A stretch of DNA of 64,000 bases. Origin: Oligoflexales bacterium (GTDB lineage: Bacteria > Bdellovibrionota_B > Oligoflexia > Oligoflexales > JALZUQ01). Both the position numbers and the translations under genes were made by a program. Below the pieces are notes generated by a model that did no database searches, had not been told where the DNA came from, and worked only from the letters and a program-made list of their open reading frames with translations. The stretch spans positions 17,219 to 81,218 of the forward strand of contig JALZUO010000028.1 of NCBI GenBank assembly GCA_023301565.1. Direction: 5' to 3'. Shown here in pieces: positions 3,243 to 56,092 of the stretch. Numbering within the stretch: the first letter of the stretch is position 1; every line of letters starts with the position of its first letter.

Positions 3243-3980
3243 ATGAAGACAGACCTTAAAAACTGGCTGGTGGTTATACCAGCAAGGCTAGAGAGCACGC
3301 GGCTTCCGAACAAGCCCCTTGCTATGGTAGCGTCTAAACCACTTATTTACTGGGTACACTCGCAGGTAGCAAAACTTGAAAGTTATGGTGCTGATGTGGT
3401 GGTTGCCATCGATGACTTGAAGACAGAAGAGGCATGCAAGCAATTTAAAATTCCGTTCGTGCAAACTTCTAAAAAACATAAAAGTGGCACGGACCGTGTG
3501 GCTGAAGTTGCAAAAGACCACGGCAAGGATTTTATATTAAATGTCCAAGGGGACGAGCCACATATATCTGTGGGTGATCTTGCGGCGCTGATGCAAAGGA
3601 TGGAGGCCGACTCTGGCAAGATGGGAACTCTTGTTTTTAAAACCAATGATCCAAAGGTTTTAGAAAACCCAAACAGGGTTAAAGCTATCGTGGAAGGCAG
3701 TATGGCCATCGATTTTTGTAGAAGCTATTCTTATTGTGAGGACTCAGCAGCGGGTGTTTCTTCCGTGTTTCTTCACGTTGGTGTGTACGCATTTCAAAAA
3801 GAGTATCTTTTGACCTTTTGCCAGTTGCCGCAATCGGAACGCGAGAAGTCTCTTCGCCTCGAACAAATGCGGGCTCTAGATAATGGGGGAGAAATCCTTA
3901 CTGTCGAAGCCGAAAAGTTTACGACTGGCATCGATACACCTGAGGACCTCGAAGCTTTTCGGCGAGGCCTGAACTCTTAG
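3243..3980 (+). CDS. kdsB: 3-deoxy-manno-octulosonate cytidylyltransferase
   Basis: Activates Kdo as CMP-Kdo for attachment to lipid A in the cytoplasm. The N-terminal signature IPARLESTRLPNKPL, the downstream SGTDRVAEV and the NVQGDEP metal/nucleotide site are all present, as is the C-terminal TGIDTPEDLE. The 245-residue length is typical. It begins directly after the acyltransferase stop codon. Together with lpxD elsewhere in the window it shows a lipid A/Kdo outer membrane. Confidence 0.95.
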   Translation: MKTDLKNWLVVIPARLESTRLPNKPLAMVASKPLIYWVHSQVAKLESYGADVVVAIDDLKTEEACKQFKIPFVQTSKKHKSGTDRVAEVAKDHGKDFILNVQGDEPHISVGDLAALMQRMEADSGKMGTLVFKTNDPKVLENPNRVKAIVEGSMAIDFCRSYSYCEDSAAGVSSVFLHVGVYAFQKEYLLTFCQLPQSEREKSLRLEQMRALDNGGEILTVEAEKFTTGIDTPEDLEAFRRGLNS

Positions 3981-6174: not shown

Positions 6175-7338
6175 ATGAAATCGATATTTATTCTCCTAGT
6201 AATAGCTGTGTTTTTTGGGTTACCTGCCGTACGAGCGGATGCAAAGCCACTGTGTAACCTTGCTAGAAGTAAAGCCATGCTTGCAAAAAACAAGCTACAT
6301 GAAAAAATGTTTTCTTCAGTCAAAGCAGTCAAAAGTATGGAGCGTCGCCGTAGGATTGTTAAAGGTGTATTTGAACCTATTGCGCAAAAGCAGAGACTAG
6401 ACGTTTATAAAACAAAACACTCTTTAGACTTTCTTGAGCTCGATGCTTTGTCTCGCCGCGATATGTCCATCATAGATGCAGTGCGAGAATCCATTAAGAT
6501 TTCTGGGCTGGAAATAAGTTTTAAAAATAGCAGGATGAAGCTTGCCTCGGATGCAGCCTTATATGGTTTTACTGCCGACCAAGCCTTGGCTGCATATGAT
6601 GCTATGCAAAGTGAGATGATCAAACAGGGAGCCAACACGCGAAACTCGCTTTTTAAATGGGATGTCCAATCGGTTTCCTTGCTTAAGATGCTATCGACCT
6701 TGTCACCATCTGAGATTCTCAGCTATCAGCGGCGGGCGAAGATGCTACTGGGCCCTATTACGCCGCCTGCATGGGACGAAGTGCTTAGGGTTCATTTGAT
6801 GACTGGTGATTCTATAGAGTCGATTGTCGGTGCAGCAAAATCGATTACGAGTATTGCTGAGTTTGCAGAATTTTTTGATAATCACTCGGGCCACGACTAC
6901 ATATCAGTTGGGTTGATTCAAAATGCTGCTTTTTCGGGTAAATACGAAGTAGAAAAGTACGTGTTAGATTGGAAAGCAAGAAGGTCCAGCTTCGTCGACA
7001 CTCAGGCTGCCTACTCCCTGCTTTTTTCCTCTGTAACTTTAGCTAAGACCGTTTCTGAACTGCAAGAAGAACGGATGCCTAAACTAGTAGAACAAGTCAA
7101 AGAGGTGAGAGCAGAGCTGAAGTTGCCGCGTATCGGTCCAAAAAGTAATCTGATGGAAGTAATGGTCGCCTCCATGATTGAAAAAAGTGCTTTTCATGGC
7201 ATTAGTGACGATACCATACTCAAGGTTTACCGAGAGCTTCTTGTAAGAGGTTATGATGCTCAAGACATACCCGGTTACTGGGGAACGATGAATAAAGCCT
7301 TAAAGGCGGTTATTGCGGATAGCTTTCCTGTTATATAG
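6175..7338 (+). CDS. exported helical protein of unknown function (paralogue A)
   Basis: A 387-residue protein that I do not recognise. A clear signal peptide spans residues 1-22 (hydrophobic ILLVIAVFFGLPAV, cleavage near VRADA). The remainder is predicted almost wholly alpha-helical, with one early Cys and no catalytic motif that I can see. Its closest visible relative is the neighbouring frameshifted gene at 7583-8753, aligned along the whole length (for example SEMIKQGANTRN versus NEMIKQGANTQN), so the pair arose by tandem duplication. This copy is intact. It is likely a periplasmic or secreted protein. Confidence 0.8.
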   Translation: MKSIFILLVIAVFFGLPAVRADAKPLCNLARSKAMLAKNKLHEKMFSSVKAVKSMERRRRIVKGVFEPIAQKQRLDVYKTKHSLDFLELDALSRRDMSIIDAVRESIKISGLEISFKNSRMKLASDAALYGFTADQALAAYDAMQSEMIKQGANTRNSLFKWDVQSVSLLKMLSTLSPSEILSYQRRAKMLLGPITPPAWDEVLRVHLMTGDSIESIVGAAKSITSIAEFAEFFDNHSGHDYISVGLIQNAAFSGKYEVEKYVLDWKARRSSFVDTQAAYSLLFSSVTLAKTVSELQEERMPKLVEQVKEVRAELKLPRIGPKSNLMEVMVASMIEKSAFHGISDDTILKVYRELLVRGYDAQDIPGYWGTMNKALKAVIADSFPVI

Positions 7339-7513: not shown

Positions 7514-7559
7514 ACTGTGTAATGTACCTACTTAGGCACACAGTTGGTCGGTTTTTTTT
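7514..7559 (+). terminator. terminator-like hairpin with T8 tract
   Basis: ACTGTGT (7514-7520) pairs with ACACAGT (7538-7544), followed after seven bases by eight Ts (7552-7559). It lies 24 bp before the second paralogue's start, so it may end transcription of the first paralogue or attenuate the second. The stem-to-T distance is longer than ideal. Confidence 0.35.
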
Positions 7560-7582
7560 ATTGTAGTATAGGGAAAAAATCC

Positions 7583-8074
7583 ATGAAGTTTATCGTCGGT
7601 TTGTTGTTATTGTGGGTAACCCTTGGAGTTAGTTTGACAGCAGGTGCTAGCCCTCGATGCAACCTTGTAAGGGTTGAAAGTAGACTAATTGAGAATAAAA
7701 ATAATGAACGGACCTTTTCAGCAAAAAACTCCGTAGACGCTATGGAACTTAGGGGCCAAGTTGTTAGGGCGATGTTTGTTCCTGTCGCGAAAAAAAATGG
7801 TTATAACTCTTCCAGTGTCGACGTTATTGTTAACTTGATGGAAATCCATGCTTCGCGGAGTAGAGGACCTTCGATAGCTGCTTCAGTGAAAGAATCCATG
7901 AAAATAACAGGAGTTGAAGTAGGTACATCAAATAACAGACACCAGCTTGCAATGGATGCAGCTACATACGGGGTTAGTGCTGACGAGGCTCTAGCGTTAT
8001 TTGACGATATGCAGAATGAAATGATCAAACAAGGAGCTAATACACAAAACCCAATTTTTAAAATCCGATGTTGA
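7583..8074 (+). pseudogene. exported helical protein, paralogue B, 5' part (frameshifted)
   Basis: First part of a tandem paralogue of the 6175-7338 gene. The start at 7583 is chosen for its upstream GGGA and because it opens a signal peptide (FIVGLLLLWVTLGVSL, cleavage near AGA). Homology to the intact copy continues to the segment NEMIKQGANTQNPIFK, then the frame runs into TGA at 8072. The downstream frame resumes the homology at once (KSDVES matching KWDVQS). The break sits at the homopolymer pair T5A4 (8055-8063), so one extra base explains it: a real mutation, a base-call error or slippage. Confidence 0.7.
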
Positions 8075-8753
8075 ATCACTTGCGACGGTTAAAATGTTGT
8101 CGACCTGGTCACCACCTGAGGTTCTTCACTACCAACAGCTTGCTAAGAATTTACTTGGTCCCAATACCCCGTCAGCAGCAGATGAGGTTCTTATAGTCCA
8201 CCTTATGACATGGGAGTTAATTGAGACTATCGTTAATTCTGCAAAATCTATTACAGAAATAGCTGAATTCGCCAAGTATTTTGAGGACGGTGCAGACGGG
8301 GTAAATAGTTACTTTAGATCAGTCAGCTTACTTCAGTACGCTGCTTTTACAGGTCGTTCAGAAGTTAAGAGGTTTGTAGAAGATTGGAAGGTGAATAGAG
8401 ATAGCTTCACTGATCGTCCTTCTGCAGACTCTTTATTGTATTCTTCGGTAGTGTTGCAAAAAACTATCTCAGAATTGCGACGTAGTCGATTACCTACTAT
8501 AGCGAAAGAAATTAATAACATCAGAGCTGAGTTGAAGTTGCCTGTAGTCAGTTTTAGGGACCCATTTATGGAAAAGGCTGTAGCTGCTATCCTTGAAAAA
8601 AATGCTCTTCACGGGATTAGTGATAAGACAACTTTGAAGGCCTACAGAGAGCTTTTGGAAAGAGGCTATGGCAGAGACAGTGTAGAGGCTTTTTCGCGTC
8701 AGATGAGTAGTGCGTTGCATATGGTTGTGTTAGTTAGCTTTCCTGTCCTTTAA
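8064..8753 (+). pseudogene. exported helical protein, paralogue B, 3' part (frameshifted)
   Basis: Continuation of the gene above in the next frame. From about 8061 the codons read KSDVESLATVKMLSTWSP, matching KWDVQSVSLLKMLSTLSP of the intact paralogue, and homology holds to the C-terminus (VSFPVL versus ADSFPVI). An ATG at 8094 could be called a start, but it has no Shine-Dalgarno sequence and lies inside the homologous region, so an independent protein is unlikely. With one base removed near 8060 the pair would give a single protein of about 390 residues. The reading frame downstream is otherwise well preserved, so the lesion is recent or artefactual. Confidence 0.7.
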
Positions 8754-30388: not shown

Positions 30389-30659
30389 CTCTTTTTCCTT
30401 ACTTGGTTTTGCCTTTACTCAAAAAGAAGCTGCCTATGCACCCGCTTTTGAAGGCTGATTCGAATTCTAGGTGCTTTCAATGCACCCAAATACACCTTAA
30501 GCCCCCAAAATTACACCTACCTATAGGGGAATGCAAGTGGCTGGCATCAAGGGTCTCGAAGATTTTGCTTTGTTTGCATAAAAAACTTGCAGTTTCAATC
30601 CAATCTACGAGGGAGAGCCTGATAAGATATTGTTATTGCGGATAACTTTGGAGCAGCTT

Positions 30660-32132
30660 ATGCGATTATTTGGTGGGTGGAGCTTGTGCATTTGGTTGGC
30701 TTTGTGGAGCTATTCGGTAAATGCTCAGACCAGCAATGTATCAGACCTTAGGTCTTCGGTGTTTAAGATCATCACTATCAGCGCCTCGCCTGATTACAGA
30801 AACCCGTGGAACGATTTTTCACCTTCTCAATCTTTTGGTACCGGATTTTATATAGGTCAAAAGCTTATTTTGACAAACGCGCACGTAGTGGCTGAACACC
30901 GTTATGTCATGGTGCAAAAAGACGGTGAGGCCAGGCCTGTAAGAGCCAAGGTCTTGTTTCAAGGCCATGATTGTGACCTAGCAATTTTGAGTGTCGATGA
31001 CGCTGCGTTTTTTCAAAACATAAAGCCTCTGACTTTAGGGGGCGTCCCTAGGCTTTTGTCTCCGGTTCAAGCGATTGGCTACCCAGTGGGTGGAGAGCAG
31101 CTTTCGATCACAGACGGTGTCGTAAGCCGAATGGGGTTTAATGTTTATTCTCACGACGGTTTTGCCCAGCATTTTTTAATCCAAGTTGATTCGGCGATTA
31201 ACCCAGGAAACAGCGGCGGGCCGGTGGTTCAAGGTGGCAAAGTAGTAGGGGTGGCCTTTCAAGGCCGAACCACAGCGCAAAGCACGGGCTACATTATTCC
31301 TACACCTGTAGTCGAACGGTTTTTAACAGACATTTCAGATGGCAAGTACGACGGACACCCGTTTCACGGGTTATCGCTTCAAAAATGGTCGATGACAAAC
31401 CCGAGTTTACGTAAGTTTATGAAAAAAAGTGACGTTCAAGGCATCCTGGTTGCGGATGTCGCCGAGTATGAAGGCGTATCAAAGGTGCTTCAAGCAGGTG
31501 ATTTGATCACTGAGATGGAAGGAAAAGCCATTGGTGTCGACGGTAAAATTGAGTACTACCGCGAAAGAGTTGATTTTAGGGTTCTCATAGATCAAAAACA
31601 AGTGGGTGAAAACGTTTCGATGAAAATTGTGCGAAATGGCAAACCGATGGAAGTCAGCTTTAAGGCTGGCAGCCGCCGCAAACACTACAAGCGCAATACA
31701 GTTTATAAAAAAAGGCCTCCTTATGCTGTTGTTGGCGGCATGGTTTTTACACCATTGACAAGAAACCTTTTAGAGACCTGGGGCAAGTCTTGGTACCTCG
31801 AATCGCCTCTTTCCCTGCGTAGAATCCACGCTTATTATGAGCACTCAGAGCTTGCCGGCCGCGACGATGTCATTGTCTATGTGCAAAAGCTTGGGTCTCG
31901 CATCAACAGCTACGTGCAGACGCCCAAGTTTGCCATTGTTAAGTCTGTTCAGGGTAAAGAGCCCAAAAGCTTTTCCGAGTTTGTAGAGCTAACGCAAAAC
32001 TATGATGGAAAATTTTTGAAGATCGACTACTTTTTTGATGAGATACCTACTTTTTTAAGTCAAGAATCAAGAAAAGAAGCAGAGGCTGAGATTCTTCAGT
32101 CGTTTCGAATTCAAAAAGGTTTTGTTCTTTAA
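30660..32132 (+). CDS. exported Deg-like serine protease with PDZ domain
   Basis: 490 residues from the ATG at 30660 (GGAG upstream), with a signal peptide ending near VNA. The trypsin-fold domain has a complete triad: His in TNAHVV, Asp in HDCDLAIL, Ser in INPGNSGGPVV. A PDZ-like region follows (LVADVAEYEGVSKVLQAGD and DLITEMEGK), then an extra C-terminal domain of about 170 residues not found in DegP. This architecture resembles plant-type Deg/DegP9-like proteases rather than DegP. It is followed 22 bp later by a catalytically dead paralogue. Confidence 0.83.
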   Translation: MRLFGGWSLCIWLALWSYSVNAQTSNVSDLRSSVFKIITISASPDYRNPWNDFSPSQSFGTGFYIGQKLILTNAHVVAEHRYVMVQKDGEARPVRAKVLFQGHDCDLAILSVDDAAFFQNIKPLTLGGVPRLLSPVQAIGYPVGGEQLSITDGVVSRMGFNVYSHDGFAQHFLIQVDSAINPGNSGGPVVQGGKVVGVAFQGRTTAQSTGYIIPTPVVERFLTDISDGKYDGHPFHGLSLQKWSMTNPSLRKFMKKSDVQGILVADVAEYEGVSKVLQAGDLITEMEGKAIGVDGKIEYYRERVDFRVLIDQKQVGENVSMKIVRNGKPMEVSFKAGSRRKHYKRNTVYKKRPPYAVVGGMVFTPLTRNLLETWGKSWYLESPLSLRRIHAYYEHSELAGRDDVIVYVQKLGSRINSYVQTPKFAIVKSVQGKEPKSFSEFVELTQNYDGKFLKIDYFFDEIPTFLSQESRKEAEAEILQSFRIQKGFVL

Positions 32133-32154: not shown

Positions 32155-33654
32155 GTGAAAAATATTTATTTATCTGGATATAAAACAGCAGGAAAGCAGC
32201 TTATGTATAAACTTGGAATCATCGCAGTACTCTTTTCGGTTTTCATTTCGTCTTTTAGTTGTGTCCCGACTAGCGTGCTAGATCACAAAAACAGCATTGC
32301 GCTGATGAATGTAACTCGCTTAGATCCAGATTTTGAAGCGCCTTGGCTCATGCTTCCGCCTAAGCAAACCGCTGCCTTTGCTTTTTTTCTTTCTGACGAC
32401 ACGCTACTTACAACCTATAAGTTTTTGCAAAACACTAGGCTTGTCGATGCACAGCTTGTGGGAGAGAGTGAAAAACGCGAAGCAGAAGTATCTTTTTTTG
32501 ATCCAGATGTAGGCTACGCACTTCTCAAGCTAAAAGAGCCGATCAAGGACGCTAACCCTTACAGCTTGTTGAATGAGGAGCTTTCCATTGGTAAAAAGTG
32601 TACGGGCATACGGGTGGAAAAGGGCGATCAAATCAAAGAGGTAGAGCTGACCCTTGAAAGGGTTGAGATGGGTGAGATTTCGACGAGCTTAAGGCGAGTG
32701 CCGCAATATATTTTTAGCGGTGAGTCCGATGGTTTTGGTTTGAACCAGCCACTACTATGCGGAAGCATGTTAGCTGGGCTGATTGTTGCAAAAGGCGACG
32801 ATGAACTTACGGTGACCCCTTCTTTTTTGATGAAGGATTTTTTATCTCGCTCCAAGAAAAAAGAGTACATAGGCTATGCGAGTCTAGGCGTTTCTACAGA
32901 CGCTGTGTTGGATAAAAATCGCTTGGAGTATATGGGGATTGAAAAGGGACAGACAGGACTCGTTGTCCGCTACATTTTACCTGATAGCCCAGCTGCCAAG
33001 CATTTAAAAGCGGGAGATTTTATCACAGATTTGGATGGACACGCTTTGGACGAGTATGGGTACATCGAACATAAAAAATGGGGCAAAATTAAGTTCCACT
33101 ATGTGGTTTCGAAGAAATCTCCTGGAGAGTCAATCAAAGTTACGCGGTATCGTGATGGAAAAAAAGAGTCTGTTTCTTGGGAGCTCGATCGCTTTGATTC
33201 AAATACAGGCCTACTGCATGTGAACTCAAAAAACTCGCTACAGTTAGACCATGAAATCATCGGTGGAATGATTTTTCAAGAGCTCAGCTTAGGCTACTTA
33301 AAAGTCTGGGGTAAAAACTGGTACAAGACAGCACCACTGCGGTTGATGCAGATATTTTCGCAGTCTAACTTTGAACGTGAAAAGAAGGGCGAGCGTGTAG
33401 TAGTCCTCAACAAAGTACTGGCCGACTCGGTCAATGAAGGCTACCAGGACCTGCAAAGCCTTATTTTAGATTCGGTTAATGGCAAAAAGATACAATCCTT
33501 GGCTGATCTGCGAAAAATCATTAAGGATTTCCCTATGTTAGTTGACGGCAAAAAGTTTGCAAAGTTTGAGTTTAGGTTCCTTGAGGGCATGGCTGTTCTG
33601 GGATACGAGGCGATTGCTGCGTCCGAAAAAAGGATTGCCCAAAAGTACTTGTAA
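32155..33654 (+). CDS. lipoprotein pseudoprotease, Deg-like paralogue
   Basis: Tandem relative of the preceding protease, with the same order: protease-like domain, PDZ (YILPDSPAAKHLKAGDFITDLDG) and the extra C-terminal domain (shared GGMIFQELS/GGMVFTPLT and WGKNWYKTAPLRL/WGKSWYLESPLSL). The triad is lost: the His site reads TTYKFLQ, the Asp site DVGYALL, and the Ser site NQPLLCGSM. The signal peptide ends in a lipobox SFSC, so it should be lipidated. A GTG at 32155 (GGAG upstream) and an ATG at 32203 both open the frame; the ATG gives a more typical lipoprotein signal. It probably partners or regulates the active protease. Confidence 0.78.
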   Translation: MKNIYLSGYKTAGKQLMYKLGIIAVLFSVFISSFSCVPTSVLDHKNSIALMNVTRLDPDFEAPWLMLPPKQTAAFAFFLSDDTLLTTYKFLQNTRLVDAQLVGESEKREAEVSFFDPDVGYALLKLKEPIKDANPYSLLNEELSIGKKCTGIRVEKGDQIKEVELTLERVEMGEISTSLRRVPQYIFSGESDGFGLNQPLLCGSMLAGLIVAKGDDELTVTPSFLMKDFLSRSKKKEYIGYASLGVSTDAVLDKNRLEYMGIEKGQTGLVVRYILPDSPAAKHLKAGDFITDLDGHALDEYGYIEHKKWGKIKFHYVVSKKSPGESIKVTRYRDGKKESVSWELDRFDSNTGLLHVNSKNSLQLDHEIIGGMIFQELSLGYLKVWGKNWYKTAPLRLMQIFSQSNFEREKKGERVVVLNKVLADSVNEGYQDLQSLILDSVNGKKIQSLADLRKIIKDFPMLVDGKKFAKFEFRFLEGMAVLGYEAIAASEKRIAQKYL

Positions 33655-45252: not shown

Positions 45253-46770
45253 CTACTTTGAAATAGCTAAAAATTGGTACTCGTCGCCACGCTCAATACG
45301 AATAAGACAGCTTTTGTGCTTTCGAGTCGCTGCATAGAAGTCCGATGGTTTAGTAACCTTGGTTCTTTTGCGGTTCACACGAACCTCTACAATGACATCT
45401 CCCTCGCGCAAACCAAAGCGTGAAGCAGCAGACCCAGGCGCTGCGGCACTTACAACAGCACCGGAAGCAGAACTGATGCGGTACTTAGATTTTAGCGCGC
45501 GGTTTACTGGGACCAATGAAAAGCCAAACCCTGAACCTTTACTCCCTGACTTCGAAGTCAATGTTTGTGGGTTGTCTGGGAAAGATTGAATTTTTAGCGA
45601 AAATGATTTTTGCTTGCCATCTCTGTAGGCCGAAACATCGACTCTGTCTCCAGGGTTTCGGAGGCCAACCTGGTTTGCCAGCTCGTTTGGTGAGCTGATG
45701 TTTTTGCCGCTCACCTGTGTGATTACATCGCCTTCTTTGATCCCGGCGCGCGCTGCAGGGCCCTTGCTCACGACCTGGGTTACCATCACACCTTTTTGCC
45801 CTTTTGGAAGCCCAAGGTGGCTAGTCATTTGCTCGTCCATGCTCTGCATGGTTACGCCGATATACCCGCGGTCTACCTTACCTTTGTTGATGAGCTGTGT
45901 AGCGATGCGGCGTGCAATGTTCGAAGGGACGGCAAAACCAATTCCATTATAGCCACCGGCTTGTGAAAAAATCGCAGTGTTTACACCGATGACTTTTCCA
46001 GCCATGTTGATCAGCGGTCCACCCGAGTTTCCGGGGTTGATGGCACTATCTGTTTGGATAAAGTTTCCTAGCTGGGTGAGCTTTAGGTTTCCGCGGCCAA
46101 GAGCCGAGATAACCCCAAAGGATATACTAGATTCAAGCCCAAACGGCGCTCCCAGTGCAAGCGAAAACTCGCCGACCTTAAGCGCGTCGCTATCAGCAAG
46201 TACCAGTGAAGACAACCCTTTGCGGTTGAACTTTTTCATCTTGATTTGAACGACGGCAATATCCGTGTTTTTATCTCTACCTACGACTTTTGCATCATAG
46301 CTCTCACCGTTTGCTAGTTTTAGGCTAATTTCATCTGCGCCTTCGACCACGTGGTTGTTCGTTATGACATAGCCCTGGTCTAAGTCGACAAAAAACCCAC
46401 TACCGATCCCACTTTTTTGTGGCTTGGGGTTGCTTTGCCGAGGGGATTGGTTTTGCAGCTCCGGAAACCAAAACTCAAAAGGGTTAAACTGTCCGCCATT
46501 TCCAAAAGGGTTGCGAACTACCTTGGCCACCGAAACAAAGACAATAGCAGACGATGTTTGGGCAGCGATTTCACTTACGCCCTGAGACATTTCCTGCAGT
46601 GCCGACACATTACTCGAATAACGCGCGGTGCTACTCGAAGAGCTTGGCAGTTTGTAGGCAAGCCCAAAGCTCGGCGCTAGGACAAGGCAGCAGAGTAGCG
46701 CCATGGATATCACCGCTAGACGCGGCGGTTTACAGAAGGTTTTAGTCGATGGGTTCTTTTGTTTGTTCAT
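45253..46770 (-). CDS. periplasmic serine endoprotease DegP/DegQ (Do family)
   Basis: 505 residues with a signal peptide (AVISMALLCCLVLAPSFG). Protease triad: His in ITNNHVVEG, Asp in KNTDIAVVQ, Ser in INPGNSGGPL. PDZ1 (GYIGVTMQSM, GPAARAGIKEGDVITQVSG) and PDZ2 (GSAASRFGLREGDVIVEV) follow. A linker of about 25 residues with GNGGQFNPFEFWFPE corresponds to the LA loop. Envelope quality control and protein folding stress. Its own unit, with the terminator at 45127-45186. Confidence 0.93.
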   Translation of the reverse strand: MNKQKNPSTKTFCKPPRLAVISMALLCCLVLAPSFGLAYKLPSSSSSTARYSSNVSALQEMSQGVSEIAAQTSSAIVFVSVAKVVRNPFGNGGQFNPFEFWFPELQNQSPRQSNPKPQKSGIGSGFFVDLDQGYVITNNHVVEGADEISLKLANGESYDAKVVGRDKNTDIAVVQIKMKKFNRKGLSSLVLADSDALKVGEFSLALGAPFGLESSISFGVISALGRGNLKLTQLGNFIQTDSAINPGNSGGPLINMAGKVIGVNTAIFSQAGGYNGIGFAVPSNIARRIATQLINKGKVDRGYIGVTMQSMDEQMTSHLGLPKGQKGVMVTQVVSKGPAARAGIKEGDVITQVSGKNISSPNELANQVGLRNPGDRVDVSAYRDGKQKSFSLKIQSFPDNPQTLTSKSGSKGSGFGFSLVPVNRALKSKYRISSASGAVVSAAAPGSAASRFGLREGDVIVEVRVNRKRTKVTKPSDFYAATRKHKSCLIRIERGDEYQFLAISK

Positions 46771-47756: not shown

Positions 47757-49370
47757 TTACTTTTTTGCCAGGCGGTGCTCTATAGCTGCCTGGCATTTTT
47801 TTAGCTCTTTTTTTGATTGGCTCTCAGGTGCTTCAGTGATGGCTTGTGCGATTTTGTTTTTAGAATCTATAAGTTTTTTCTCGATAAGTTGAAGGGCGTC
47901 TTTATAGTCGAGGTTAAAAAAGTGTAGAATAGTTGCTTCGAACTTGGCTATGTCTTTTACAATGCGCTCAGCTCCTCCACGAAACCCGTAGATGTCTGCA
48001 ATTTTGTGGCTAGCACTCCACAAGCTTCCACCGCAAACAACCAGCAGCAGCCCTTTGGCGGCGCCAATTTTTGCCAAAATCAAAACCCCACTACCAAGTG
48101 CAAGAGAGCTCAACAGCTTTACGATAGCTCCTTTTAGGCCTATGGCTGCAAGAAATGCCGGACCCAGCGTTAGGCCTAGGCCAGTAGCCAAAAAAGCCCC
48201 GCCGAGCCAATAGCCCAAAGACTTGATCTGCTTTCTGCTCATGAGGTCGTCGACAATTTCTTCATAGGAGCTTAGGGCTGCGCTAAACTTTTTTTGCGCA
48301 AACCCTGAGGTAGCAATAAACTGTAGCAAGCTGCGTCGGCCCACTGATTGATCAAAGTCGGAGGGTTTGGTCTGGTAGGTTTGTTGCTTTTGCGCTCTCT
48401 CTTCTGACTTTAGGTCAAAATAGGGCTGAAACAAGGCTGTTTCTAAATATAACATCCCCATTTTTTTATAACCCTGTGAGGTCAAACGGACGCACTCCTC
48501 TAGTAGGTGAGCTTCGTCCTCATCTAGGTTTTTTAAGATAGAGTTTTCACTGGTAGCGACGTCGCGCACCTTTTTTTGCAGAGACTTCCAAGAGGTGTAC
48601 CAAAGCATTTTAGCTTTCTTCTTGCTTGAATCTTGCTCTGTTTCAATGTCTTTACGCACAATCATCGCCTGCAGGCTGAGGAGCAGCCGAAGCTCTTCGG
48701 AGTCAATTTCAAACGGGTCGCCGTCTTTTTCAAGTCCGATGGCAAACTCTTCAATTCTTCTTTTTTGTATTTGCAGCTTTTCAGCTTTTCGGCCAAGCAT
48801 GAAAGAAACCGTCAAAAGAAGCATGCGCGGCAAGATGCCATAGAAAAACATGGTCCCCAAAACCCAGTTACGCCAGTGCAGGCGGCCGAGGTTTTGGTTG
48901 TCTTTGGGGTCTATGTTGATCGATGAGATCATGGTACTTGGATCAAACTCTATGCCCAATATTTGCAGAGGTGCTCCGAGGATAGAAATCATCGAGAAAA
49001 CAAGGTTTTCATGTAAAATTTCAGGGAATGTCGTTGCAAATTCAACCCCAACCACCTTGTGCAGGTATGTCCAGAGCAAAAGCAAGAAACTTCCGGTCAT
49101 ATACCCAGTAGAGGCTAGAAGTAAGGCTTTAGTCTTTTTTTGCTCAAGGCTTTTCCATCCCCACGCTACTCCGAATATAAGCGCCAACAAGGGGCCGGCA
49201 ACAAACAAGACAACAAAGGGCAAAAGCTGAAGATTTTTGGTTGCGACACCACCAAAGACGTAGCTTCCGCCGCAGCCAAGGGCAAAGCCTACAAAAAAGA
49301 AAACCAGCAAACCATAGGTTTCTACTTTTTTATATAACTGGTTTAAAAACAGTTTGCCTCTAAAAAACAA
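47757..49370 (-). CDS. inner-membrane protein, DUF2868-like N-terminal part
   Basis: 537 residues. Four membrane helices lie in the first 190 residues (about 19-39, 47-72, 82-103, 168-191) and a hydrophobic cluster near 390-460. The segment from TTFPEILHENLVFSMISILGAP to YGILPRMLLLT follows the layout I associate with DUF2868 proteins (a TFL-x-E segment, then l-x-x-P, then Y-x-x-lPR). The middle is a charged cytoplasmic helical region. It starts three bases after the stop of the peptidase/barrel gene, so the two are coupled. Function unknown; the DUF call is from memory and tentative. Confidence 0.5.
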   Translation of the reverse strand: MFFRGKLFLNQLYKKVETYGLLVFFFVGFALGCGGSYVFGGVATKNLQLLPFVVLFVAGPLLALIFGVAWGWKSLEQKKTKALLLASTGYMTGSFLLLLWTYLHKVVGVEFATTFPEILHENLVFSMISILGAPLQILGIEFDPSTMISSINIDPKDNQNLGRLHWRNWVLGTMFFYGILPRMLLLTVSFMLGRKAEKLQIQKRRIEEFAIGLEKDGDPFEIDSEELRLLLSLQAMIVRKDIETEQDSSKKKAKMLWYTSWKSLQKKVRDVATSENSILKNLDEDEAHLLEECVRLTSQGYKKMGMLYLETALFQPYFDLKSEERAQKQQTYQTKPSDFDQSVGRRSLLQFIATSGFAQKKFSAALSSYEEIVDDLMSRKQIKSLGYWLGGAFLATGLGLTLGPAFLAAIGLKGAIVKLLSSLALGSGVLILAKIGAAKGLLLVVCGGSLWSASHKIADIYGFRGGAERIVKDIAKFEATILHFFNLDYKDALQLIEKKLIDSKNKIAQAITEAPESQSKKELKKCQAAIEHRLAKK

Positions 49371-49373
49371 AGC

Positions 49374-52300
49374 CTATATCTCCAAAAAGTTATCAAAGCT
49401 AAAGTTGAGATAATAGTCATAGTTGTCTGATTCGAGGGCGCGGCCAGCACCAAGACCTAAGGAAAACTGTAGGCCTTTTGCTTCAAACTGCATATCAAGG
49501 CTGTGCCCGTGTGCCCATTCGAAACGGTTAAACGGAATATCCAGGGACTCTCCTGACCAGGCTCCGCCAAAGTTTACAAAGTTTGCTAGGTCGATTCTCT
49601 GGAGATAAAAGATGTATAACAGCTTATCCATATGTTTTACGATCGGAAACGAAAGGTTGAACTTTGTTCGAGCTTGGTTGTCACCGTATCTGGCGCTAAA
49701 CAAACCGCCAGGTGGGAGCTTTTCAAAGTAGTCTTTGGCTTCTAGGTGAAAGTTGTTGAAGCCTGACCCCTCGCCAGCCACAAAGGTTTTAAGTGGGCGA
49801 TAAAGTTGCCTCAACAAAAGCTGCTTGCTTCCTCTACTTCGAGAGTACTCCCAGCCGATATTCGTCGATACCCGGCCTAGTTTTGGCATGTAGATGGTCT
49901 GAGACAGGTTGAGGTTGTTGTAGACGAGTTCTTTATTAAGTTTATTAGGGCTAAAGGTAAACTGCCCAGCAGTTGAAAGGCTCCATCTGCCCATCCGAGC
50001 CAGGTGCGAGGTGCCAATGCCAAACTCGTGGTTTTTGCCGCTACGAAACCCAGCGTTTGTTTGCAGCTGTTCTTGGCTGTAAAACTTTCTGTCGTAAAAC
50101 CGGTAAGAAAGCGTAGTAGATATATTTAAGATAGGCTGCCAAGGCAGGCTTGCACTGATCCCTGCACTGGTGCTGTCAAAAAAAGACGCTATTAATTGCT
50201 GGGTGCCGTCTGCTTGCCTGCCAATAAAGGCCCCGTTGAAGGCAATGGTTTTGCGGGCATTGATAGACCACAGTGGCCAAAACCTTGTCGAACGAACCGT
50301 AAGGTCTACGTCTGGGAACTCGGAGGTGAGGCCCCAAAGAGCGCTTAGGCGCAACTCTTCGTTTTGACTAAAGTCCATAAGTGGCATCGAAAGTACCCCT
50401 ATACTGATTCCTTCGGGGTCGGCTCCAACCCAAGGGGAGGTAGCTCCGTGCTTTAGGCGGTATTTTGCTTTTCGTGTGGGTACGATGGATATCGATTCAG
50501 GGCGGCTAAGCTCTGCTTCTTTGCCTGTAAGTGCAGGGCTGTTTTGTACTTGCCAGAGGTCGGCGCCTTGAATTGCTGCAGCAAAGCTAGCGGGCTTTTT
50601 TTGGTTCATGGCAAAAAGTAGAGGAGAGCTATGCCGGCTAGTGGTGTCGCATTTTTTTAGTTTTTGGGATGCGCGTCTTTCCACCAGAAGACCCGAAGAG
50701 TATAGGTTGGAAATCTGCACGGCAAAGTTGTCGTTTCCTAGTGCGAAGACGCGCTGCGGAAGTTCGGCATACCAGATCTGCCCTAAGCAGTTACCTTTTA
50801 AATCATATTTTTGAAGTTGACGGTGGGACCTTCCGGCTGTAATCACCCAGAGGCTACCTTTGCTTGTGGCTACACTAATGGGTTTTTGGCTAAAGACCTT
50901 TGGGTGCTGCAGGACTCTTTTTCGTTTGAGCGTGAATGCTTTTATTTTGTAGTGGTCACCTTTTAGTGTCTGGTTGCGCTCTGAAAACCAGAGGTGGGTT
51001 GCGCCTTTTCGTTTTTTTGAAACCGAAGTGCCAAGGTAAGATATGGTTGCAGGAAGTCTTGTTTCGTTTGTACATGTGACGTTTTGATCGCTAAACTCAC
51101 CGCTTGTCCAGTTTTTGTCTTGCACAAAGCAAATCCTGCTGTTTTGGGTTTCGTGCTCTATCCAGACAAAGCCATCTGCATACTCGGATACATGCTGAAT
51201 TCGAGCTTCTCGGGTGATAGTTTTTTTGTACTTAACGTCCTGGCTGCCTTTGACCCAAAACTCGTAGGCAGCTTCTTTTCTGAACCGCTGTTTTATCCGT
51301 ACCTGTAATGGCACAAAGTCTTTGCGCGCAATAAATGTATGCGTAAGTGTTTTTTTGTTGCGAGACTTTCTTTTGATGGTGGGTTGTTGCGGGTTTAGCC
51401 ATCCGCCGCCACTATCTTTTGTAAGCTTAAAACGCCCAAGCCAGCTTTCTTTGCGGCTCATGGTTAGGTAGCCAAGCTTTGTATCAAAGCTTTGGTAGAC
51501 TTTTAGGTTTCCCAAGGGGGCTGCCTTCTTGCTTGCTACGGCAGGGATAAAGCGAAGCGGGGCTTTGCTGCTTTTTTCCCAGTGTTTTTTGGCGCGGGCC
51601 TTGTAGCTTTCAAACGCTTTTCTTGTGCTTTTATTCGTGTACTTTTTGCTGAGTGCATCCATGGGAGTATTGCCAACAATAGGAACAAGGGACCACATGA
51701 GGTGCCAGGGCATGGTGTACTTGCGGTATTTTCGGTGGATGTCGCCCAGGTTTGTTTCTTTGCTCTTTGCAAACCCCTGGCGCATAAGGTCATGCATAAA
51801 CATACCAGATAGCCCGTAGCCAACCTGGGTGTGGGTATGCCCGCTGTACAAACTGTGTAGACCATCAAAACTAGGCCAGTTTTTGCTCAAAGCAGCCATG
51901 CGTTCGGCCGAAGCCGCCAGGTCAGAGCCTTGGCTTTGTGAAAGTAGTTCTGCTAGGCCTTCGATCCACCAGTTAGCCATCCAAGGCAGATGTAAATAAA
52001 GGGCGCTTGCTGAGCCAGCATACTGGTAAAAACGATACATCTGGTCATGAGTGTATTCATGCCAGAATAGATCTCTATCACCTTGACCTAAGGTTTGGAG
52101 TTCAATGTTTCTAGTGACAAAGTTTGCAAACGAGGCATTTGATGAGGCTGCCGAGCTGACGACGGTAAGCCTTTTGTCCTTTTTGAGGTCAAACCATGCT
52201 TCCATAAACGGCCTTGCAGCCTCTAAAGAGTTTATGATCATGGCAGCTTCTTGCGGGGTTCTCCGGTCATGGTAGATCAAAAAATTATCTGAGCGGGTTT

Positions 52301-52430
52301 CGTCGTAGCGTAGTTTGTCTTGGTGCATTCCAAAACCTATAGGGAGCGCTTGGGCACCACTGCCTATACAAAGCAACAGTGGAAGTGCGATGTTGCGGAT
52401 CATATAAAAGGCGTTCTCACATAGTGTCAT
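49374..52430 (-). CDS. exported gluzincin-type peptidase fused to an outer-membrane beta-barrel
   Basis: 1018 residues with signal peptide (IALPLLLCIG, cleavage near AQA). Zinc-peptidase centre: H124-E-Y-T-H128, then WWIEGLAEL with E157 as the likely third ligand, the gluzincin pattern of peptidase MA-like families. Residues about 290-680 are beta-rich with repeated strand-turn units, perhaps a propeller. From about 690 to the end the sequence alternates polar/aromatic strands and closes with SFDNFLEI, an outer-membrane barrel pattern. So a cell-surface or periplasm-facing protease anchored by its own barrel is predicted. AAGG precedes the first ATG. Confidence 0.68.
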   Translation of the reverse strand: MTLCENAFYMIRNIALPLLLCIGSGAQALPIGFGMHQDKLRYDETRSDNFLIYHDRRTPQEAAMIINSLEAARPFMEAWFDLKKDKRLTVVSSAASSNASFANFVTRNIELQTLGQGDRDLFWHEYTHDQMYRFYQYAGSASALYLHLPWMANWWIEGLAELLSQSQGSDLAASAERMAALSKNWPSFDGLHSLYSGHTHTQVGYGLSGMFMHDLMRQGFAKSKETNLGDIHRKYRKYTMPWHLMWSLVPIVGNTPMDALSKKYTNKSTRKAFESYKARAKKHWEKSSKAPLRFIPAVASKKAAPLGNLKVYQSFDTKLGYLTMSRKESWLGRFKLTKDSGGGWLNPQQPTIKRKSRNKKTLTHTFIARKDFVPLQVRIKQRFRKEAAYEFWVKGSQDVKYKKTITREARIQHVSEYADGFVWIEHETQNSRICFVQDKNWTSGEFSDQNVTCTNETRLPATISYLGTSVSKKRKGATHLWFSERNQTLKGDHYKIKAFTLKRKRVLQHPKVFSQKPISVATSKGSLWVITAGRSHRQLQKYDLKGNCLGQIWYAELPQRVFALGNDNFAVQISNLYSSGLLVERRASQKLKKCDTTSRHSSPLLFAMNQKKPASFAAAIQGADLWQVQNSPALTGKEAELSRPESISIVPTRKAKYRLKHGATSPWVGADPEGISIGVLSMPLMDFSQNEELRLSALWGLTSEFPDVDLTVRSTRFWPLWSINARKTIAFNGAFIGRQADGTQQLIASFFDSTSAGISASLPWQPILNISTTLSYRFYDRKFYSQEQLQTNAGFRSGKNHEFGIGTSHLARMGRWSLSTAGQFTFSPNKLNKELVYNNLNLSQTIYMPKLGRVSTNIGWEYSRSRGSKQLLLRQLYRPLKTFVAGEGSGFNNFHLEAKDYFEKLPPGGLFSARYGDNQARTKFNLSFPIVKHMDKLLYIFYLQRIDLANFVNFGGAWSGESLDIPFNRFEWAHGHSLDMQFEAKGLQFSLGLGAGRALESDNYDYYLNFSFDNFLEI

Positions 52431-52579
52431 AGCAAACCTTATTTTGGAGCTGATGGGTTATTTCAGGTTTATGCTACTGAAATTCATCCAGAATTGCTAA
52501 AATAAAAGACAAGTTTTTATTTTTTCACCATCTCTTTATTCGGTATACCTTGCCGTCTTTTTTCCGGGAGGATTGATAA

Positions 52580-53896
52580 ATGCCATTAGCGAAAGATAGC
52601 TTGAACGAGTCGCAACTCAAAGACTTTCAGGATCGGTTTGTGCCCCAAGCAGAAACTGTGAACGAGTACCTTGGAACCCTTACGGGGAGCGCTAAAGAAG
52701 CTTATCAGCTAACTAAATTGACCTTTCAAAACCTGCTTAGCGACTTTCACCGTACCAATGAGCAAGAAAGCGCCAAACTTGTATGCCTTGAAAGGGCAAC
52801 CGAAGCTTTTTTTAAAGCGAAACCAGAAAGCTCAGGAATACTTTCAAAGTTGAGCCCTAAGGAAAAGGTTTCCGTTGTATTGACCGAGTGTTTTGGTGTT
52901 TCTGTGCAAGAGATTGCAGAAATGCTTAGTTGCGAGCTAGTGACTTCTCGGGCTTTATTAGCTTCTGGGCGTAAGTCACTTATGAGCGGTAGTTTGAAGC
53001 ATGGCAGTGAAAAGGAAAAAAGCCTAGTTATAGGTTATATGAGTGATTATCTGGGCGAGGAAATTCCAGATAAAAAGCTTTTGAACTTCAAAAAAGCGTT
53101 GAGTGTTGTCGAAGGAGAAAAGCCTTCTTCTGAGGACTTAGAAGATTCGCCTGTCGTTCAGGCATTTATAAAAATGCGTTATGAGCTCGATGCAGTGCGT
53201 GCAAAATTTGCCTTAGATCTGGATCAAATTGAAAGCATTCAAATTTTAGCTGAAGAGCCCAAATCAATCCTTGCCCGAGAGCATAAGGCTCTAGAAATAC
53301 TTGGTGTAGCAGAGTCGAAACAGCTTTTGCTGCGCTGGCTTCTTGCTATTATTATTCTTGTCGGAGTTGGCTGCGTTCTTCTGTTAGGGCAATCAAGGAT
53401 TGAGCAAAGTACAAAAGATTTTGACCCGCTTTTGTATCTAGGTAACGAAACCGAAGCGTTTGAGTATGACTACCGAAACCGCTTGGACTTTCCTGTGCGA
53501 GGAATTGAAGAAGTTTACAACTTTTTAAAGACAAGAAAACAAGTACTAGGTCACAACCCTGTTGTACTAAGTCCTCCGATCGCTGGTGTGAACGTGCTAG
53601 GGGCATCAGTGCTTGATTATGACCCGCGTAAAGTTTCGGCCGTGCTCTATCTGGACGAGCGATCTCTTGACCTTGCAGATTCTGGCCCCGAAGTGGTCGC
53701 ACTTTATTGCTATGACGGTAATTTCAAAAGTCTGGAAAAAGCCCCCCAAACCAATAAAAACGGTCAAACCTTTCAGAGCTATACCAGTAAAAGATTTAAT
53801 ATGGTTGCTTTTGAAAATGGTGAAGAAACTATTTGCATGCTTATGGGCCGGATGTCCGGTGCTGATTTGCTGAAGATGGCAAGCCAGCGCTACTAG
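52580..53896 (+). CDS. membrane protein with sigma-region-4-like N-terminal domain
   Basis: 438 residues, GGGAGG before the ATG. Residues about 88-135 (LSPKEKVSVVLTECFGVSVQEIAEML ... ALLASGRKSL) match sigma-70 region 4 of ECF factors, including the helix-turn-helix. The stretch before it is helical and could be a degenerate region 2. Then YMSDYLGEEIPDKKLLNF recalls anti-sigma N-termini, one membrane helix follows (LLRWLLAIIILVGVGCVLLL, about 249-270), and a 165-residue exported domain. This would be sigma and anti-sigma functions in one chain. Whether it still binds polymerase or DNA is unknown. Confidence 0.6.
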   Translation: MPLAKDSLNESQLKDFQDRFVPQAETVNEYLGTLTGSAKEAYQLTKLTFQNLLSDFHRTNEQESAKLVCLERATEAFFKAKPESSGILSKLSPKEKVSVVLTECFGVSVQEIAEMLSCELVTSRALLASGRKSLMSGSLKHGSEKEKSLVIGYMSDYLGEEIPDKKLLNFKKALSVVEGEKPSSEDLEDSPVVQAFIKMRYELDAVRAKFALDLDQIESIQILAEEPKSILAREHKALEILGVAESKQLLLRWLLAIIILVGVGCVLLLGQSRIEQSTKDFDPLLYLGNETEAFEYDYRNRLDFPVRGIEEVYNFLKTRKQVLGHNPVVLSPPIAGVNVLGASVLDYDPRKVSAVLYLDERSLDLADSGPEVVALYCYDGNFKSLEKAPQTNKNGQTFQSYTSKRFNMVAFENGEETICMLMGRMSGADLLKMASQRY

Positions 53897-54950: not shown

Positions 54951-55291
54951 TATTTTTTTCCCTAAATTTTATTCTTTACCTTGTAAGAAGATTATAGCCT
55001 ACTTCGGCTGAAGTAAGAGGCTTTGGTGTCAAAAAATCGGTTAGCTGACAACTTTTTAGTTACTTCGCTTAGTTTGACGATACCAAACAAAAACCATTTT
55101 CCTTCTTAAAATCACCATAATAACAGACCCTTGGAGTTATTTTGCTAATCCCTTGACAAGGTGGCCTATTCGGGCATCACCCTTGCAAACTTGTGTACAG
55201 AGGCGATACCAGCCTTTGCTCATTGAAGCAGTGTGTGGAAGTTGAAATTAGTTGTTGTTCAAGTGTGGACGAAGAAATGGAGATCAAGAAT
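54951..55291. other. divergent intergenic region
   Basis: About 340 bp between two lipoprotein genes. ACTTC-GGCT-GAAGT forms a small hairpin near 55000. A TTGACA occurs at about 55153 without a matching -10; TTGCAA with GATACC at 16-base spacing near 55184-55211 is a weaker alternative for the downstream gene. No ORF with a start signal. Confidence 0.4.
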
Positions 55292-56092
55292 ATGAAAAAG
55301 ACATCAACCCTTATGATGGTGGCAATCTGTGCCGCAGCTATGTTGCAAGTAAGTTGTAAATCATCTGTTAAAACATCGGCAAAAAAAGATGCGGATCCTC
55401 AGTTAGTAGCGGGAAACGGTGTTTTTACACCAGATTCTGATATTTCTATTAATCCTCAAATTGATACTAGTGCTAACTTAGGTGGAGACCTTTTAGCTAG
55501 TGATTCTAACGGTGCATATGGACAAGCTATCCCAGCTCAATGCTTAACTTACCTTAACCAACAAAGAGATGTATACCCAACTACATTGATTGCTTCTAAC
55601 TTGGGTACTTTCGAAAACAGCATTCAGTTTCAAAGTGAGCTAGCATACTGCCAGCAGTACCTAGGTAACTATATGCAAGGTCCAGTCTGGAATGGTTACA
55701 ACCGTGATGTTCAAAATGGATATTCAGATATAACTCCAATCGGTGTTGGCGGTGTAGTTGGATCAGGTTACGCTCGGCCAATCGGCGGATGCTCAAGCGG
55801 AAATTGCGGCGTTCATAGCGGTTCGGTATACGGCGGCGGATGCTCAAGCGGAAATTGCGGCGTTCAAAGCGGTTCAGTATATGGCGGCGGATGTTCAAAC
55901 GGAACCTGCGGCGTTCAAAGCGGCTCAGTATACGGCGGTCACTCTTCTTGTGGTAGCAACGCATACGGCGTAAGTGGATGTTCAAATTATTATCAGCCGG
56001 GTATCGTTGGAGCTGCTGTTATCGGTGCACGTAACACTCTTCGCGCTACGGGCAACCTACTTTTCGGTGGATGCGGTACTCGCTGCTACTAA
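55292..56092 (+). CDS. Cys/Gly-rich repeat lipoprotein
   Basis: 266 residues from the ATG at 55292, chosen for GGAG nine bases upstream and a clean lipoprotein signal (lipobox LQVSC). The first two thirds are Asn/Asp/Ser/Gly-rich, then three 17-residue tandem units of the form GCSSGNCGVxSGSVYGG, then a Gly-rich tail ending GGCGTRCY. Cys pairs with fixed spacing suggest metal binding or inter-repeat disulfides. Codon use in the first part is A/T-richer than in neighbouring genes. No family recognised. A clear terminator follows. Confidence 0.78.
   Translation: MKKTSTLMMVAICAAAMLQVSCKSSVKTSAKKDADPQLVAGNGVFTPDSDISINPQIDTSANLGGDLLASDSNGAYGQAIPAQCLTYLNQQRDVYPTTLIASNLGTFENSIQFQSELAYCQQYLGNYMQGPVWNGYNRDVQNGYSDITPIGVGGVVGSGYARPIGGCSSGNCGVHSGSVYGGGCSSGNCGVQSGSVYGGGCSNGTCGVQSGSVYGGHSSCGSNAYGVSGCSNYYQPGIVGAAVIGARNTLRATGNLLFGGCGTRCY
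55787..55939 (+). repeat. in-frame tandem repeat, 3 x 51 bp
   Basis: Units at 55787-55837, 55838-55888 and 55889-55939 differ at only a few bases. Each encodes 17 residues with two Cys. The in-frame length makes unit gain or loss tolerable. Confidence 0.92.

Follow-up and report, generated by a model that had tools for sequence, protein, structure and literature searches.

The gene under study is a 438-codon open reading frame at 52580-53896 on the plus strand of the window, the 64,000-nucleotide stretch of an Oligoflexales contig that was analysed, with an ATG at 52580 and a stop at 53894-53896. The encoded protein is single copy in its own genome. Its parts and the relevant neighbours are as follows, with the basis of each assignment in brackets.

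3243..3980, plus strand: kdsB, CMP-KDO synthetase (NCBIfam E=5.6e-65; adjoins the locus in most relatives)
49374..52430, minus strand: divergent neighbour cl1, a 1018-aa exported protein with a weak M9-like peptidase stretch (synteny; Pfam PF01752)
52431..52579, no strand: divergent intergenic region (open reading frame bounds)
52566..52571, plus strand: Shine-Dalgarno-like GGGAGG, 8 nt before the ATG (direct sequence reading)
52580..53896, plus strand: putative fused pseudo-ECF-sigma/membrane anti-sigma-like protein, 438 aa (open reading frame; homologues fused or split)
52607..52819, plus strand: sigma2-like domain, aa 10-80, region 2.2/2.3/2.4 signature lost (AlphaFold2 helices, family profile, hhalign, residue counts)
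52820..52855, plus strand: short sigma2-sigma4 linker, aa 81-92 (AlphaFold2 model, span counts)
52841..52981, plus strand: sigma region 4-like helix-turn-helix (HTH), aa 88-134 (Pfam PF08281 E=3.7e-6; residues)
52982..53020, plus strand: fusion junction, aa 135-147 (comparison with split relatives)
53009..53203, plus strand: anti-sigma-like helical domain, aa 144-208 (alignment with the N-terminus of split partners; AlphaFold2 helices)
53324..53386, plus strand: transmembrane helix, aa 249-269, the end of a long helix 227-269 (hydropathy, AlphaFold2)
53414..53893, plus strand: exported alpha/beta domain, aa 279-438 (separate AlphaFold2 model; weak RseB/MucB-like fold matches)

This layout agrees with a preliminary description of the same DNA, which had proposed a sigma-4 HTH, an anti-sigma-like segment, one membrane helix and an exported domain in a single chain. 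The match to region 4 is statistically significant, the N-terminus carries sigma/anti-sigma-type cytoplasmic domains only, the exported domain comprises ∼160 residues, and the strongest hydrophobic 19-mers lie at residues 249-269 (Kyte-Doolittle 2.67; best elsewhere 1.57). In addition, the HTH proved to be only one part of a full sigma2-sigma4 ECF fold.

At all 36 informative loci the gene, or the pair of genes that replaces it in relatives, lies in divergent orientation to kdsB and/or a gene encoding a ∼1,000-aa exported protein. In the window genome the latter gene is in place and kdsB is displaced to 3243-3980. The ∼1,000-aa exported protein, a predicted product whose gene adjoins kdsB across the order, contains a weak M9-collagenase-like stretch with the motif HEYTH, and the 1018-aa member matches PF01752 at E=0.0015, below the Pfam cut-off. 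It is adjoined by a gene for a membrane protein matching DUF2868 (47757-49370, minus strand; E=2.7e-11). An HtrA/DegP-like protease, a possible site-1 protease, is encoded at 45253-46770 on the minus strand, ∼6 kb from the fused gene, and the relatives G008 and G038 have an HtrA/DegP-like homologue near kdsB. Elsewhere on the plus strand of the window, 30630-32132 and 32155-33654 encode adjacent exported trypsin/PDZ-like proteins, the second seemingly lacking an obvious catalytic serine motif; 55193-56092 is a lipoprotein-like open reading frame with tandem Gly/Cys-rich repeats (GGCSSGNCGVQSGSVY); and 6175-7338 and 7544-8753 are similar tandem genes for secreted proteins, the second split into open reading frames 7544-8074 and 8094-8753.

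Sigma70_r4_2 is the one significant Pfam family in the full-length protein (26.9 bits; cut-off 25.7), and the N-terminal 142 residues alone match it at E=6.4e-7. The region 4 HTH is matched at E≤1 by 12 of 14 family members, the window member having the best region 4 score seen in the family, and Pfam Sigma70_r2 matches none of the 14. A 14-sequence family profile nevertheless matches SigE in regions 2 and 4 alike (E=1.1e-11) and extends across the sigma-like domain of PhyR (E=1.9e-7), and hhalign aligns the family with six canonical ECFs from Oligoflexales at a probability of 97.0 (E=8.8e-11, 130 columns). Since the profile and hhalign matches cover regions 2 and 4, residues 10-134 are judged, from these comparisons, to be derived as a whole from a sigma factor. 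Each of the six canonical Oligoflexales ECFs scanned matches the NCBI general ECF model (E=2.1e-27 for the one shown); the window protein matches it at E=7e-4. The PhyR model is the top NCBIfam match for both split members checked and is matched by 7 of 14 members. Profile scans including Pfam gave no receiver domain in the window protein, and in a search with PF22233 for a true PhyR in other genomes, those matches that were translated are ordinary ECFs.

An AlphaFold2 model built with 18 sequences (mean pLDDT 84.7) is all-helical over residues 10-269 and alpha/beta over residues 283-435; folded alone, the exported domain reaches pLDDT 89.5 and pTM 0.87. The top Foldseek match in the PDB is PhyR. 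The sigma factors of the SigW-RsiW, RpoE-NepR and PhyR-NepR complexes (5wuq, 5uxx and 2lfw) fit the model at TMt 0.66-0.70, and RNA polymerase-bound sigmas at 0.31-0.45. The AlgU-MucA, SigK-RskA and RpoE-RseA complexes fit only at 0.30-0.36, as poorly as the polymerase-bound sigmas. The model is thus suggestive of a compact arrangement of sigma2 and sigma4 like that in the SigW-RsiW, RpoE-NepR and PhyR-NepR complexes. A search of a viral fold library gave no convincing match.

The anti-sigma-like domain is recognised by its position, its predicted helices (residues 144-158, 164-178, 184-189 and 191-208) and a YLDGEL-like motif; the zf-HC2 match is weak (E=0.19), and a profile search of the PDB with the anti-sigma half gave nothing significant. 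Many split partners contain the YLDGEL-type motif, which in the window protein reads YLGEEI, with glycine at the position of the motif's aspartate. The ZAS motif HxxxCxxC is absent from the window protein, which has no cysteine between residues 119 and 264, and no FecR-like periplasmic domain was matched in Pfam at E≤10. Weak matches of the exported domain to the RseB/MucB fold (E 0.02-0.4, TM-score up to 0.42) serve only as a lead.

A tblastn-type search of 191 genomes gave matches in 40, of which 38 are in the same order, and a profile search added one more genome, placing the single-copy family in 39 of 43 Oligoflexales genomes and in none of 15 other genomes of the phylum. Named contigs also place the family in Oligoflexales. 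In 28 of the 39 genomes the locus consists of two adjacent genes on the same strand, encoding a sigma-like protein of ∼145-165 aa and then a membrane anti-sigma-like protein of ∼280-290 aa (with longer versions in G012 and a contig end truncating that of G009). The fused form occurs in eight genomes (G000, G003, G011, G015, G025, G027, G029 and G031), and the f3 copies among them (G003 and G011) have a shortened cytoplasmic part. At the same locus, two others (G013, locus L038, and G018, locus L037) encode the transmembrane helix and exported domain only and show no trace of a sigma nearby, and in the remaining one (G040) the locus is cut by a contig end. Because most relatives have two adjacent genes that match its two halves, the window gene is a natural fusion, joining the two genes of a sigma/anti-sigma-like operon.

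In the split relatives the first gene ends at the junction with a stop codon, and the second starts anew after a short gap, usually of 6-70 nt. Several relatives have a single in-frame stop there, and stop recoding or read-through was considered; it was rejected on account of the varying gap and frame and of the new starts that follow the junction stops, often with a Shine-Dalgarno-like sequence. An assembly artefact was likewise rejected, the fused form being present in eight genomes. On an RpoD tree that includes the window genome, this fused genome is sister to a split one, and a topology that unites all the fused genomes is rejected (AU p=5.4e-6). The fused/split label changes five times on this tree, the exact number of fusions being uncertain given several long branches and groups that received their names once the fused state was known. 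An earlier tree built without the window genome rejected joining of the fused groups f8 and f11, or f8 and f3, and was borderline for f3 and f11 (p=0.051).

Residue counts were made for 34 family members and 19 canonical ECFs, both from Oligoflexales. The DxxQ core-binding signature of region 2.2 is absent from the family: its glutamine is present in none of the 34 members versus all 19 canonical ECFs, and its acidic residue (D/E) in 7 versus 19. The aromatic residue (W/F) of region 2.3 is present in 2 of 34 versus 19 of 19 and the asparagine of region 2.4 in 0 of 34 versus 14 of 19, and the D/N of the W..N..D signature of regions 2.3/2.4 for the -10 element in 6 of 34. In region 4, the helix at residues 120-134 of the window protein occupies the position of the recognition helix but lacks the SR..R contacts, having A, L and S at the equivalents of S172, R173 and R176. 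The loss of these DNA-contact residues from the second helix of the HTH extends across the family: the -35 contacts are retained at S172 in 2 of 34 members (13 of 19 canonical ECFs) and at R173 in 2 of 34 (9 of 19), and R176 in 6 of 31. Fused and split members share the loss of the sigma signature. The span from the region 2.2 phenylalanine to the region 4.1 arginine, a proxy for reach across both promoter elements in RNA polymerase, is 47 residues in the window protein versus 69-80 in canonical ECFs, and 47-66 in the family with one outlier of 101.

R149 and R178 of RpoE are contacts of helix 1 of the anti-sigma factor, according to a study of ECF/anti-sigma coevolution (PMC7406223). The equivalents of these docking residues are R or K in 34 of 34 and 26 of 31 members, respectively. 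Judged by these residues, the family has lost the sigma signature and kept the anti-sigma docking surface, as would be expected of a sigma mimic, and its sigma domain has most likely ceased to direct RNA polymerase. Against this reading, residue losses are no proof of lost polymerase binding, and divergent sigmas exist; the region 2.3 alignment could shift, family members carrying a tryptophan a few residues later; and the high region 4 score of the window member indicates a domain that is partly still sigma-like.

We propose, with a probability of about 0.58, that the degenerate ECF sigma is a mimic, kept clamped by the anti-sigma domain that follows it in the polypeptide, and that the exported domain does the sensing. 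The mimic would retain the sigma fold and the surface gripped by the anti-sigma domain, and would be held by it under the inner membrane. The exported domain would sense, or be bound by, a component of the envelope, probably one tied to LPS or to the divergently encoded ∼1,000-aa exported protein, thereby altering the clamp, and output would be through protein-protein contact. Fusion, fold, signature loss, order-wide conservation and synteny are the computed basis of this proposal, while the clamping, the sensing and the direction of the signal are what we infer. Against it, two genomes drop the sigma and anti-sigma domains and keep the exported part, and the anti-sigma domain has no significant profile match. 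A bolder proposal, to which we give slightly less than even odds, is that this is an order-wide membrane signalling module whose pseudo-sigma took over from the real sigma as the partner of a membrane anti-sigma protein, that it works without a canonical ECF in several genomes, and that it was fused repeatedly and independently.

The main rival is a working, divergent ECF sigma of the type of IutY, the sigma/anti-sigma hybrid of Pseudomonas putida (ECF243), for which proteolytic release has been shown (PMC8999054, PMC9249621); such release has also been proposed for ECF48/52/53 (PMC8999054). The window protein would then be inactive at the membrane until freed by a site-1 protease and then RseP, and would act on envelope genes. 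Its domain order is that of IutY and ECF48/52/53, its region 4 scores above the Pfam cut-off, and its genome encodes M50 proteases, one in a 571-codon frame, as well as the HtrA-type gene at 45253-46770. However, residues for core binding and promoter contact are lost family-wide, the sigma2-sigma4 span is ∼20-28 residues short, and the general ECF model fits the window protein far less well than a canonical ECF. Moreover, in several families the split genes are preceded by a conserved sequence that, read by eye as TTGCCA, ∼17 nt and TACCAT, resembles a sigma70 promoter rather than an ECF one; a promoter scan of the window's own intergenic region (52431..52579) gave no sigma70 consensus. On balance we regard this explanation as unlikely.

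Less probable still is a partner switch as in PhyR, in which the pseudo-sigma would compete with a true ECF for the anti-sigma domain and so control that ECF. PhyR is the top structural match and a leading family match, the docking arginines are kept, and the window genome has two canonical ECFs (C33 and C168). Yet there is no receiver domain, and four genomes that are each at least 90% complete (G002, G008, G015 and G033) have no obvious ECF partner because they show no canonical ECF with a region 2. That the locus is a decaying remnant, in which only the transmembrane helix and exported domain matter and the two cytoplasmic parts are in the course of being lost, would suit G013 and G018, which lack both cytoplasmic parts, and the shortened f3 copies, but is very improbable given a sigma-like domain kept in 36 of 39 genomes (one more being cut by a contig end) and the conservation of the R149 and R178 equivalents. 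Least credible is the function suggested in the preliminary description, whose architecture stands, that of a one-component regulator anchored in the membrane, which would bind promoters with its sigma-4 HTH and need no release by proteolysis: an HTH fold and a membrane anchor are present, but the recognition-helix contacts and the region 2 residues for core binding and the -10 element are gone, the HTH is part of a sigma fold that faces the anti-sigma domain, and split relatives encode it as a separate protein with no membrane anchor.

Sigma and anti-sigma factors are a main route by which envelope signals reach the genes of bacteria. If the clamped-mimic proposal is true, a sigma/anti-sigma switch other than the PhyR system has been converted into a device that works by protein-protein contact, and the label 'RNA polymerase sigma factor' is misleading for such proteins. 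The family offers a defined set of proteins for asking whether a sigma fold without promoter contact gives an output. The fused sigma and anti-sigma architecture is itself already known from IutY. What is new is that the family as a whole appears to have lost the sigma signature while keeping its anti-sigma docking residues, and to have undergone recurrent fusion; no description of such a fused/split pseudo-sigma variant was found in the open-licence papers searched.

IutY likewise combines an ECF-type sigma2-sigma4, an anti-sigma domain, one transmembrane helix and a periplasmic part in the same order in one chain. It drives transcription after cleavage by Prc and RseP, in a FecI-FecR system with a TonB-dependent receptor (PMC8999054, PMC9249621), whereas the window protein has lost the sigma signature, its exported domain has no FecR-family match and its neighbour is no annotated receptor. 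In ECF48, ECF52, ECF53 and ECF36, too, a membrane anti-sigma-like extension is joined to an ECF sigma (PMC8999054). In ECF48/52/53 the extensions carry zinc-finger anti-sigma domains and the sigmas are expected to work (PMC8999054), unlike the window protein with its missing ZAS motif. The family resembles RseA/RseB and class I anti-sigmas (PMC7406223) in its predicted N-terminal helical domain, a DGE-like motif seen in many members, one transmembrane helix and a periplasmic domain, although the window protein gives no significant Pfam match to them and its similarity to RseB is limited to a TM-score of ≤0.42 and E≥0.02. PhyR, the alphaproteobacterial anti-anti-sigma factor and a known sigma mimic (PMC4598750), has in common with the window protein the sigma2-sigma4 fold, the first Foldseek rank and a profile match over both domains, all of which are similarities only. 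It is a soluble protein that has a receiver domain and pairs with NepR (PMC4598750), whereas the sigma-like part of the window protein is tied to a membrane anti-sigma-like part.
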